Shown piece by piece: positions 34,355 to 40,152 of a stretch of DNA of 64,000 nucleotides. Location of the stretch: contig JAEINS010000005.1 of assembly GCA_016342755.1 (NCBI GenBank), positions 1 to 64,000 of the forward strand, read 5' to 3'. Every line of letters starts with the position of its first letter. Position 1 is the first letter of the stretch. A program made the translations under genes and the position numbers. Source of the DNA: Melioribacteraceae bacterium. Its GTDB lineage: Bacteria > Bacteroidota > Ignavibacteria > Ignavibacteriales > Melioribacteraceae. The notes beneath the pieces are model-generated. The model worked only from the letters and a program-made list of their open reading frames with translations, was not told the DNA's origin and made no database searches.

Positions 34355-34484
34355 TTAAATCCCCTCAAAATAATTTTCGCTATTTATCTTAATTTTTTCA
34401 AAAAAAAGAGTTAAATATTTTTTACTTCTCCCGATTATGGTTATTGGATTCATTCTTTTAATAATTTATAATAAGGATATTCAA

Positions 34485-36428
34485 ATGGGACTCACAAAAG
34501 ATATCAAAATTCTACTTGTTGAAGATGCCTCAGTTATGAGAAAAATGGAAATCAAAACATTGAATGTACTTGGTTTCAAAAATATAATTGAAGCTGTTGA
34601 CGGGAATGATGCTATCAATCAATTAAATAAACACATTGATGTGAAATTGATTATAAGTGACTGGAATATGCCTGAAAAAGATGGATTCGAACTGCTTCAA
34701 TGGGTTAGAACAAATAAAGCTACAAAAGAAATCCCTTTTTTAATGGCAACCGGACGCGGTGAGAAAAAAGAAGCCAAACAGGCTAAAGAAGCCGGTGTTA
34801 GTGCTTTTATCTCTAAACCATTTAATAAAGATGAATTATTAGAAAAAATTGAAGAAGCATTTGGATTAAAAGAAGAAGAAGTAAAAGTTGTAAGAACTAA
34901 GGCTGATAGAACTTCGGGCAATGGTAAATTAAAAATAAACGCGGCGCATATTCAGATTACCGATCACTTAACTTTAGGCGTTTTAAAACATTTGATTTCT
35001 AAAGGCGATCTTAATCCGGCACATTTTGAACTTGAAACAGAATGTATGTCGAGCTGGAACACTGTTGCAAAAGCTCTGGAAGATGGTTCAGCCGAAGCAG
35101 CTTTTATTTTAGCACCTTTAGCAATGGATTTATATAATGATGGAACTCCGATAAATTTAATCCTTTTTGCCCATAAAAATGGCAGCTGTTGTGTCAGGAA
35201 TAGCAAAGGAGGCAATTTTAGCGAAATGCAAAAAGATTTTTTCAAGGAAAAATCTTTTTATATACCTCACACAATGTCAATTCATAATATGCTTGGTCAT
35301 ATTTTCTTTAGTAATAATGATGTAAAACCAGGCGTCACAGGTCAGAAAGATGTTGATGTTGAGTTTGAAGTAGTAGCCCCCATTAAAATGCCCGAGTTTT
35401 TAGCAGAAAATTCTGATGCATGCGGATACCTTGTTGCTGAACCTCTTGGCACAAAAGCCATTGCGGCCGGTAATGCTGAGCTTCAATTTTTATCCAGTGA
35501 ATTATGGCATGATCATCCGTGTTGTGTTTTAGCTGTTCAGCAGGATGTTGTAAAGGACTTCCCGGAAGCATTGGATGAGTTTACAAAAATGTTAGTTCAT
35601 GCGGGAAAATTTATAGAAGAAAAACCCGGACTTGCGGCAGAAATAGCTGTTGAATTTCTTGATCCTAAAAAAGAATTAGGATTAAAAGTACCTGTGTTAA
35701 GAAACGTACTTACAGAACCTAAAGGAATAAAGACCAATAATCTTTATCCAAATAAATCCGATCTGGATCTGATACAAAAATATATGCATAATGAAATGGG
35801 TGTTGGTTCAATTATAGACATCGATAAATTTGTAGATATGAAGTTTGCCAATTCTGCGTGTACCGATTCCGACAAAAAAGCAAATAGAAAAACAACTATT
35901 GAAGAACTTACATCTAAAGCTAGAAATCTGATGCACCGGGATGAAGACTTTGCGGCAGATCAGTCTACCAAAGCACTTCTAAATCTTGAAGGGAAATACC
36001 TAAAGTTTGAACTTAACAAACAGCAATATGGTGTTGATATATTAAAAATAGTTGAAATAATTAAACTACCGCCGGTTACAATGGTGCCAAATACCAATAA
36101 TTACGTAAAAGGTGTTATTAACTTAAGAGGAAGCGTTGTTCCGGTTATTGATCTGAGAATCAAGCTTAATCTAAAATCGGTTGATTACACTGACAAAACA
36201 AGAATAATTATTGTTGAAAACGAAGTAGACGGTTTATTGCTGCGTGTAGGATTAATAGTTGATAATGTTGCTTCTGTACATGATGTAGTTGCCAGCGAAA
36301 TTGATGCTGCTCCAAGCTTTGGCGAAAAAGATAATAAAGACCATATTTTAGCAGTCGTAAAAACCGAAAAATCGGTGTATGTACTCCTTAATCTTGATAC
36401 TATTCTAAAACCGGAAAAGAAATATTAA
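34485..36428 (+). CDS. REC - NrtA/SsuA-like binding domain - CheW fusion protein
   Basis: 647 aa and cytoplasmic. Residues 6-125 are a CheY-like receiver: KILLVEDASVMRK, phospho-acceptor Asp59 (IISDWNMP), and ISKPF with the conserved lysine. Residues ~145-440 match NMT1/NrtA/SsuA-type periplasmic solute-binding proteins (AHIQITDHLTLGVLKHLI, YLVAEPLGTKAIAAGNAEL, WHDHPCCVLAVQQ) but lack a signal peptide. Residues ~505-640 are a CheW domain (YLKFELNKQQYGVDILKI, VKGVINLRGSVVPVIDLR). I start at ATG 34485 because AAGGAT lies 7 nt upstream; the longer frame from 34437 adds a spurious hydrophobic lead. It should couple phosphorylation and binding of a small molecule to a receptor-kinase array. An MCP lies downstream; no CheA is in the window. 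Confidence 0.88.
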   Translation: MGLTKDIKILLVEDASVMRKMEIKTLNVLGFKNIIEAVDGNDAINQLNKHIDVKLIISDWNMPEKDGFELLQWVRTNKATKEIPFLMATGRGEKKEAKQAKEAGVSAFISKPFNKDELLEKIEEAFGLKEEEVKVVRTKADRTSGNGKLKINAAHIQITDHLTLGVLKHLISKGDLNPAHFELETECMSSWNTVAKALEDGSAEAAFILAPLAMDLYNDGTPINLILFAHKNGSCCVRNSKGGNFSEMQKDFFKEKSFYIPHTMSIHNMLGHIFFSNNDVKPGVTGQKDVDVEFEVVAPIKMPEFLAENSDACGYLVAEPLGTKAIAAGNAELQFLSSELWHDHPCCVLAVQQDVVKDFPEALDEFTKMLVHAGKFIEEKPGLAAEIAVEFLDPKKELGLKVPVLRNVLTEPKGIKTNNLYPNKSDLDLIQKYMHNEMGVGSIIDIDKFVDMKFANSACTDSDKKANRKTTIEELTSKARNLMHRDEDFAADQSTKALLNLEGKYLKFELNKQQYGVDILKIVEIIKLPPVTMVPNTNNYVKGVINLRGSVVPVIDLRIKLNLKSVDYTDKTRIIIVENEVDGLLLRVGLIVDNVASVHDVVASEIDAAPSFGEKDNKDHILAVVKTEKSVYVLLNLDTILKPEKKY

Positions 36429-36593: not shown

Positions 36594-37793
36594 ATGACAA
36601 AAGCAGTACGAATATTTTCTATAATCTTCATTTTAGCAGGCTTTCTTGCGGAAGATTATTTGGCACAATCCGATATAAACATCTTCGGGTTTTATCAGGC
36701 ATATGCCAGAAAAGTTGATGGTGATTTCAAAGTAACGGGAGATGTTCCTTACTTTCACCCGCAGCTTGGTTTAATCACTCTTGAAGATCAGGTTTTACAG
36801 AAAGAAACAAACGATTTTACTGATTCACAGGTTCAGCAATTAAATCTTTTCTTTCAAAAAAACATTTCACCATCTTTTTCATCATTTGTAAATTTACAGA
36901 TAGTTAATAATTTTAATTCGAAAAATATGTGGGGCGCATTTAGTCTTGAAGAAGCCTGGGTAAACTATCAATATAACGACGCGTTTAATGTTAAAGCAGG
37001 TTATTTGATTCCTAAGTTTAATTATCTTAACGAAATACAGAATAAAACCCCGCTTCTACCCTATTTAATAAGACCGTTAGTATACGAAGCTTCATTAACA
37101 AATATTGTTAATCCTACAGATTATTTGCCAACCAAAGCATTTTTACAAATATCCGGTTCAGTATTTTCCGATGAATTAACTTTTGAATATTCAGCATTTG
37201 TGGGGCCTTCAGAGGATAATTATATTGCAAATGATGTTGGTGATGGAGCCATTACTCCGGGCGTTGATACTACAAACTTCAAAACTTTTGGAGGCAGAGT
37301 TGGGATTTTATATTCAGACTTGAGAATTGGAACCTCATTTACAACGGATAAAGACAATCAAAAAGATATGGCTCCTGGAGATGATGTTAATAGAACCAGA
37401 CTTGGATTTGATATTTGATATAGTATTGGGAATATGTTCCTAGAAGGTGAATATATAAGTGTTATGCTCGATTATGATGAAGAGGATATAGATAAATCAT
37501 TTTATTACGGTTTAGCAGGTTATAATTTTAATGAAGATTTTTTTGGTTATGCTACTTATAGTACAATCAAAGATCAGCAGGTTAATTTTCTAAAAGATGG
37601 TTTAAAAAGTATTGTTATAGGTGCGGGATATAGACCAACTTTTGGAATTGTAATAAAAGCCGAATATGGAAATTATTTTATTTCTGAAGGAACAACAATT
37701 CCACTAATGATAGATCCTGCAATTCCGCCAATAGATGCAAACATAGAATTAGATTTTACAAATATAAGTTTAGCTATAAGTGTAATTTTTTAA
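36594..37793 (+). pseudogene. porin-like outer-membrane protein interrupted by one in-frame TGA
   Basis: A signal peptide (AVRIFSIIFILAGFLAEDYLA) is followed by beta-barrel-like alternation with aromatic strand ends (FGFYQAYARK, WVNYQYNDAFNVKAGYL, ISLAISVIF at the end). It resembles small phosphate-selective or DcaP-like porins. TGA at 37416-37418 stops translation after GFDI, and the same frame resumes at once (YSIGNMFLEGEYI) and runs to 37793, giving a 400-codon protein. One base change (e.g. CGA or TGG to TGA) explains it. It could be a pseudogene, a sequencing error or a readthrough codon. GAGGAG at 36583 is a good RBS. It is followed 13 bp later by the similarly interrupted binding-protein gene. 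Confidence 0.75.
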
Positions 37794-38337: not shown

Positions 38338-40152
38338 ATGCAAAATTTATTAACATTACTTAAAACCTCAATTAAGACAAAATTACTTGTGATGGCAATT
38401 GTTCCTTTACTTGCAATTGTAATTTTTGCTTCAATCTATTATCCAAGTAAAATGAAGACCCAGGCTATTACAGATGCAGGGGCTAAAGTACACACTTTAA
38501 GCGAAATGCTTGCGTTTTCAGTTGGAGCCGGATTAAGCAACGGTGATTTTGAGTTAGTTCAAACCGCATTTGACTGGGCTAAAAAAGATCAGAATACATA
38601 TTACATTGTAATTATTGATGATAGCGGTGAAGTATTAATTGAACATAATCCGAACAAATTAAATGTTGATCATGCTAATTTACCAAAGAGTCTTTTTGAT
38701 GAAGAAACCAATTTATTTAAAACAAGCTTAAACATAGTTTATGCTGATACTGAGTATGGTAAAATTGGTGTTTTCTATTCACTTGAAACTGTTAACGCCG
38801 AAATTAATAGTAATTTAATAATTTCCCTTATAATTCTATTAACAATATTGGCAATAAGTACTGTAGTAATCTTTATACTGTCAAGAATGATCAGCAACAA
38901 TATTATATCGCTTAGAAACGCGGCTGTAGAAGCAAGCTCGGGTAATCTTGATGTAGATATTGATACATCGGGTGAAGACGAAGTTGGCGATCTCTCTAAG
39001 GCATTTGAAAAGATGCTGCAAGAAATTAAAGCTTCATCTGAGGCACTTGAAACAGAAAAATCCCAGGTTGAAAAGAAAGTTGAAGATGCTGTAAGAGAAT
39101 CTGAAAATACTAAAAACTATCTATCAAAAAGTATTGAAATTATTTTAGCGGTAGTTGAAAAACTTTCTTCCGGTGATTTAACAGTCCAGGTTGATATTAA
39201 CAGTAAAGATGAAATTGGCAAATTATCAAGTGAACTGAATTCTGCTATAGATAATGTTAGAAATCTCCTTCTCGAAGTAAAACAAGCTGTTGTATCAACA
39301 ATATCTTCTAGTAACGATATTACATCGGCAACGGAAGAAATGGCGGCAGGTGCTGCTGAACAAAGTGCACAGACCAATGATGTTGCGGCGGCAGTTGAGG
39401 AAATGGCCAGAACAATTATAGAAACTACCCAGAATGCCAGTAATGCGGCTCAGTCTTCTCAGAACGCCAGCGAACAGGCCAGAGTAGGTTATGATAAAGT
39501 TGAAGAAACAAAGCGCGGCATGGAAGAAATTGTTGCATCCACACAACAAACCGGCAAAGTAATTGAAAGTTTGACAGGTAAAACTGAACAGATTGGTGAA
39601 ATTGCCCAGGTTATTGATGATATTGCTGATCAGACAAACTTGCTTGCGTTAAACGCTGCAATAGAAGCTGCCCGTGCCGGTGAACAAGGACGCGGTTTTG
39701 CGGTTGTTGCCGATGAAGTTAGAAAGCTTGCCGAAAGAACAACTAAGGCGACAAAAGAAATTGCGGAAACAATAAAAGATATTCAAAATGAAGCCAGACA
39801 AGCTAACCAGTCCATGACAATTGCCGAAAAATCAGTTATAAATGGTATGGAAAGAACTAATGAAGTATCGAACGCGCTACAGGAAATCTTAAATAATTCT
39901 GAAAGTGTTGCTGCCGAAATTGAGCAGGTTGCGACTGCAAGTGAAGAACAATCGAGCACGGCCGAAGAAATTAGTAAAAGTATTGAAATGATAAATAATG
40001 TAACCAGAGAAACTTCAAACGCAATTGAAAATGTGGCACGTTCTGCTGAAAACCTACATGGATTAACCCAGAACCTTGGTGATCTCATTAGCAGTTTCAC
40101 AATTGAAAAAGAAGGCTTAGTACATCATAGTTCTTCATTAGAGCAATATTAA
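38338..40152 (+). CDS. methyl-accepting chemotaxis protein
   Basis: 604 aa. TM1 lies near residues 16-35 ([20 protein letters not shown]), then comes a ~120-residue periplasmic sensor of single-Cache/PAS size ([18 protein letters not shown]), TM2 near 158-180, a HAMP domain (about 180-232), a second HAMP-like segment ([19 protein letters not shown], about 275-320) and the signalling domain. Its hairpin tip is intact: [20 protein letters not shown] then [18 protein letters not shown]. It should cluster with CheW-type couplers and a CheA. The REC-NrtA-CheW fusion 1.9 kb upstream on the same strand is an obvious candidate partner. The upstream binding protein, if functional, could present a ligand. 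No CheA, CheR or CheB gene is in the window. Confidence 0.93.

Follow-up and report, generated by a model that had tools for sequence, protein, structure and literature searches.

A receiver, solute-binding and CheW domain fusion of anaerobic bacteria, probably a cytoplasmic sensing adaptor of chemosensory arrays

Input into bacterial chemotaxis is usually pictured as passing via receptors, and external binding proteins dock on these outside the cell. CheW-CZB proteins belong with CheV and CheWS to one kind of known adaptor, the CZB domain itself being a known sensor of zinc and HOCl. In CheV, a single chain with an adaptor role joins an N-terminal CheW coupling domain to a C-terminal receiver that can be phosphorylated by CheA. 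CheWS of Treponema denticola, a soluble spirochaetal protein without a receiver, is anchored to the array by its CheW domain and carries a cytoplasmic ligand-sensing domain of the CheR-like, SAM-binding type, which makes it a CheW-anchored cytoplasmic SAM sensor (PMC10653840). Extra density beneath the ring has been seen in arrays for CheWS. Proteins related to the nitrate-binding protein NrtA are also found inside the cell. In the NasS/NasT system, NasS is an NrtA-like binding protein held in the cytoplasm as a nitrate/nitrite sensor (PMC3795266), which conserves the nitrate ligands and acts on an ANTAR RNA-binding protein, and in NrtC and CmpC, cytoplasmic NrtA-like C-terminal domains have a regulatory role towards the ABC transporter they are joined to. 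Meanwhile, 3UN6 of Staphylococcus aureus and the NitT/TauT-type solute-binding proteins (SBPs) associated with clade-B CODH are exported ABC-transporter components with no signalling domain fused to them; the CODH-associated SBPs resemble 3UN6, and nickel import has been proposed for them (PMC6344411).

The window, that is, the whole stretch of 64,000 nucleotides analysed here, belongs to a genome of 4.73 Mb, the nearest named relatives of which, according to searches, are Melioribacter and other Ignavibacteria. At positions 34485-36428 of its forward strand a 647-aa chain is encoded, in which a CheY-type receiver (residues 9-123, 34509-34853; Response_reg, E 4e-22), a type II solute-binding fold (NMT1_2, PF13379, residues 180-388, E 6e-23) and a CheW coupling domain (residues 505-642, 35997-36410; E 1e-33) follow one another. 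All three domains score far above the Pfam gathering scores, which confirms the composition proposed in an earlier note made from the letters of the DNA. As a conserved unit the binding domain extends over residues 147-456 approximately (34923-35852), as judged from Pfam, an AlphaFold2 model and fold matches. The open reading frame is supported by full-length orthologues. A longer in-frame ATG lies at 34437; most orthologues, however, start at or near the shorter ATG at 34485, and since this agrees with the probable ribosome-binding site AAGGAT at 34473-34478 (+), the ATG at 34485 was taken as the start of the gene. Because the receiver forms the N-terminus of the chain, the protein lacks an export signal, and the claim of a solute-binding fold without a signal peptide, located in the cytoplasm, is borne out; the NrtA-like domain shares this feature with NasS.

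When compared with the described systems, the fusion resembles CheV in combining CheW and a receiver; the order of the two, however, is reversed, and a 310-residue binding domain is inserted between them. It resembles CheWS in its presumed CheW anchorage and cytoplasmic sensor, but contains a receiver, and no match to CheR was found in the chain by Pfam. NasS, NrtC and CmpC share the cytoplasmic NrtA-like domain, but the transporter-regulating role of the last two is not a chemotactic one. No description of the receiver-SBP-CheW architecture was found in the papers searched, yet it may figure among the 30 undescribed CheW architectures of Fig. S10 in PMC10653840. The earlier statement that no characterised system has this order of domains therefore stands as far as the literature found is concerned, but CheV, CheWS and CheW-CZB are adaptors of the same kind, and a cytoplasmic sensor of this fold is known in NasS. 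CheW-anchored cytoplasmic sensors are known as a kind, and the fusion would add to them a sensor of the NrtA/3UN6 type.

The fusion is not a one-off. A search of genomes for the three-domain order returned 43 different sequences (one of them, L089, cut by the end of its contig), and these, like the relatives detected in a peptide-pattern scan, come from Ignavibacteria, Bacteroidota MAGs and Desulfobacterota; Melioribacter roseus has an orthologue. L089 had also been considered as a variant with repeats in place of CheW, a reading rejected since the sequence simply ends with its contig. Full-length fusions are present in 14 of 97 related genomes (host included), in 13 of 391 genomes drawn from the class of the host, and, as strong matches, in about 20 of 345 genomes drawn from the phylum of a Desulfobacterales MAG (G369). 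Plasmids yielded only remote SBPs, none with more than 60% identity. An assembly artefact is ruled out, as the same order recurs at 46-69% identity in dozens of independent genomes, and the conservation of the family across two distant groups of anaerobes indicates that the trait is under selection.

Mean pairwise identity among the 43 sequences is highest in the binding domain (60%), followed by the receiver (56%), CheW (43%) and the linkers (about 20%). In a maximum-likelihood tree the binding domains of the fusions form one branch (94/88, recovered in 96% of bootstraps), neighboured by receiver-SBP proteins without CheW and one cytoplasmic SBP-only protein; exported relatives fall outside this branch. 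The receivers likewise constitute one clade, separate from the sampled CheY proteins (100/100), and the CheW tree is weakly resolved. In G006, which shares its genus with two carriers, the flanking genes are the same, but only a 151-aa CheW ORF (L022, 1516-1971) is found; its identity with the CheW domain of the nearest fusion is 89%. Judging from the sequence, this is a natural deletion, with receiver and SBP cleanly lost at the syntenic locus and CheW kept; the coupling domain can therefore persist after the loss of receiver and sensor.

The signalling domains appear to be functional. D59 (codon at 34659-34661, +), T89 and K111 occur in 43/43 sequences, as do E13 and D14, and the position given earlier for the receiver aspartate is thereby confirmed. 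D59, T89 and K111 match Asp57, Thr87 and Lys109, the phosphorylation residues of CheY. Given their invariance, the receiver should be phosphorylatable. In the CheW domain, which gives a fold match to CheW in structures of the core signalling unit, E524 and R548 are kept in 42 of the 43 sequences and are the counterparts of E38 and R62 of E. coli CheW.

On these grounds the protein is probably (we would say at about 0.7) a cytoplasmic sensing adaptor of the chemosensory array, similar in kind to CheV and CheWS, a reading well supported by the sequence, the structural model and the genomic context. The CheW domain would most likely occupy the CheW position in the CheA/CheW ring, leaving the binding domain to hang in the cytoplasm and close on an intracellular ligand. 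Such closing would modulate CheA activity, either by straining CheW differently or by moving the receiver; CheA in turn would phosphorylate Asp59 as a feedback step, as proposed for CheV. The earlier suggestion that the fold samples the cytoplasm and feeds an array is in keeping with the cytoplasmic site, the conserved CheW and receiver residues and the chemotaxis operons found in some relatives, the link to the array itself being one of context. If it is true, a solute-binding protein would sit inside the cell, within the signalling lattice and next to the kinase. A protein of the same composition might also sense no ligand at all, serving, much like CheV, as an adaptor and a phosphate sink in which the SBP fold is a spacer or scaffold. 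The intact phosphorylation residues of the receiver suit such a role, and CheV is thought to be both adaptor and phosphate sink (PMC4742279); nevertheless, a spacer would be expected to drift as the linkers do, while the SBP is the most conserved part of the chain and its pocket-lining motifs are invariant. Moreover, one of the Desulfobacterota genomes (G371) retains a receiver-SBP protein that lacks CheW, as well as an SBP-only protein of the cytoplasm. We consider the spacer role quite improbable.

The middle region was indeed predicted as a type II binding protein, as the earlier note had it. The AlphaFold2 model of this domain, computed from an alignment of 19 relatives, reached a mean pLDDT of 86.9 and a pTM of 0.88 (88.3 and 0.78, respectively, for the whole protein), and its best fold matches in the PDB were 3un6 (Z 32.9), NrtA (2g29, Z 33.7) and CmpA. 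A viral structure library gave weak matches only. Structures of Thi5 were also among the fold matches, raising the thought of a Thi5-type enzyme (HMP-P synthase) in the middle of the chain; with a Z of about 22 versus 33 for binding proteins, and with transporter binding proteins as the nearest sequence relatives, this is very hard to credit. By several measures the nearest group in both fold and sequence consists of 3UN6 and the clade-B CODH-associated SBPs, which have the CC pair in common with the fusion.

The binding domain contains four motifs with invariant residues, all on the forward strand: HIQITDH (residues 155-161, 34947-34967), AHKNGS (229-234, 35169-35186), IPHTMSIH (260-267, 35262-35285) and HPCC (344-347, 35514-35525). 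Seventeen residues checked, namely H155, Q157, T159, D160, H161, W191, H230, G233, S234, P261, H262, S265, H267, W341, H344, C346 and C347, are found in all 43 sequences, and C187 in 40. The nitrate pocket of NrtA is built of Trp102, Gln155, His196 and Lys269 (PMC13204499). W102, H196 and K269 (numbered by counting along the NrtA alignment with an offset of 29, in agreement with the ranges of the fold match) align with W191, H267 and C347 of the fusion, and the position of Q155 falls at or beside S234. Hence, W191 and H267 are kept from the nitrate ligand set shared by NrtA and NasS, but the lysine is replaced by the invariant Cys347 of the HPCC motif in 43/43 sequences, which disfavours nitrate. 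The additional invariant pocket histidines match 3UN6 and not NrtA, and a nitrate-type ligand is accordingly not supported.

3UN6, which is titled as zinc-bound, shares H230, H262, H267, C346 and C347 with the fusion in the alignment. Because of these five His/Cys residues and the missing nitrate lysine, the sequence suggests, as a best guess, a soft metal or another small ligand that binds thiols and imidazoles; a soft metal ion in particular is a tentative proposal, with the odds somewhat against it. The CC pair by itself does not mean a metal, since HPCC also occurs in SBPs adjoining cyanase. Since the pocket is invariant, the question of what it binds lends itself to direct testing, and the fusion would provide the first ligand lead for the uncharacterised 3UN6/clade-B CODH-associated SBPs. 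It is also conceivable, at less than even odds, that an undescribed and widespread class of input is at hand, in which a transporter-type SBP, relocated to the cytoplasm and built into the array as an adaptor, would enable anaerobes to navigate by their internal supply of a metal or another thiol-binding ligand with no dedicated receptor.

Alternatively, the same adaptor could, like NasS, be a cytoplasmic sensor of a small anion such as cyanate, nitrite/nitrate or a sulfonate. The closeness of the fold to NrtA, CmpA and 3UN6 and the retention of NrtA W102 and H196 speak for it, as does SsuA_fam, the best named NCBIfam family, albeit with a score of 47 against a cut-off of 163. On two alphaproteobacterial plasmids (L172, L173), genes for HPCC-bearing SBPs of the CmpA/NrtA family precede those for cyanase, a hint that this branch may bind cyanate. 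These cyanase-linked SBPs share H267, H344, C346 and C347 with the fusion, but are devoid of H155, Q157, H161, H230 and H262; taken together with the replacement of Lys269 and the absence of cyanase from the 97 Ignavibacteria relatives, by which a cyanate link through cyanase was rejected, this makes a small anion a rather unlikely ligand.

Some stand-alone SBP relatives adjoin NitT/TauT transporter and CODH genes. A link to CO or CODH, prompted by the stand-alone SBPs in clade-B CODH operons, was discarded, for no CODH above the cut-off was found in the 97 Ignavibacteria relatives, fusion carriers included. The organometallic SAO system was rejected too, the similarity to SaoX being weak (18 bits versus 300). 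No conserved metabolic neighbour of the fusion gene was found across the genomes compared. In Chlorobiaceae, genes for an encapsulin shell and for a cysteine desulfurase are also close to the stand-alone relatives; one such run of genes (L152, 5498-15801) comprises, besides the SBP, a CODH-like protein, a family 2A-type cysteine desulfurase cargo, an encapsulin shell with a cNMP-binding domain, and cysteine synthase.

The vicinal cysteines could also act as a redox or electrophile sensor, C346 and C347 being oxidised or reacting with no reversible binding of a ligand. Both are invariant, C187 is nearly so, the hosts are anaerobic, and two neighbouring MCPs carry CZB domains, one as a strong match and one just below the cut-off. 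CZB is, in addition, slightly enriched in fusion carriers (6/14; hypergeometric p 0.01, a value that ignores relatedness). The same CC pair, however, is found in exported ABC-type SBPs encoded with transporter genes, where it must serve substrate binding or structure, and we regard a redox sensor as improbable.

As to the genomic surroundings of the proposed sensing adaptor, in most genomes the fusion gene is solitary among unrelated neighbours, and that of the window also lies outside any chemotaxis operon; the host genome encodes two CheA proteins and more than ten MCPs. Chemotaxis genes adjoin the fusion in four Desulfobacterota, in one case as a complete operon. The second fusion copy of G569 lies in the order MCP-fusion-MCP-CheR-CheB-CheA, in G410 the genes after the fusion encode CheX and an SBP-only protein of the cytoplasm, in G371 the order is CheW-MCP-fusion, the MCP bearing CZB zinc-binding domains, and in L048 genes for CheA and CheR are nearby. 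At another site of G371 (L168, 493-3448), three genes in a row encode CheY, an SBP-only protein that is cytoplasmic, and a receiver-SBP protein without CheW. A Tat-exported stand-alone SBP relative was found in G390 within a CheR-2xCheW-SBP-MCP-PBP-CheA-CheB cluster.

The chemoreceptor gene said to follow the fusion on the same strand is present (38338-40152, +; 604 aa, HAMP and MCPsignal by Pfam), but 1.9 kb further downstream, a broken porin-like gene standing between the two; it is not a conserved neighbour. It may be a partner of the fusion; an operon with a downstream MCP as a general rule was rejected, as the adjacency is not kept in relatives. The intervening porin-like gene (36594-37793, +; about 400 aa), a neighbour of the fusion, has an in-frame TGA at 37416-37418, which could reflect a pseudogene or a sequence error, the frames of relatives running uninterrupted for 388-401 aa. 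Elsewhere (L047, 6121-7554) the gene beside the fusion combines a DsrC-like domain and a cysteine desulfurase in one chain. Finally, the host genome has a frame of 309 aa (G000, C30:131343-131801) that matches both CheW and CZB and, by its sequence, probably encodes a CheW-CZB adaptor.
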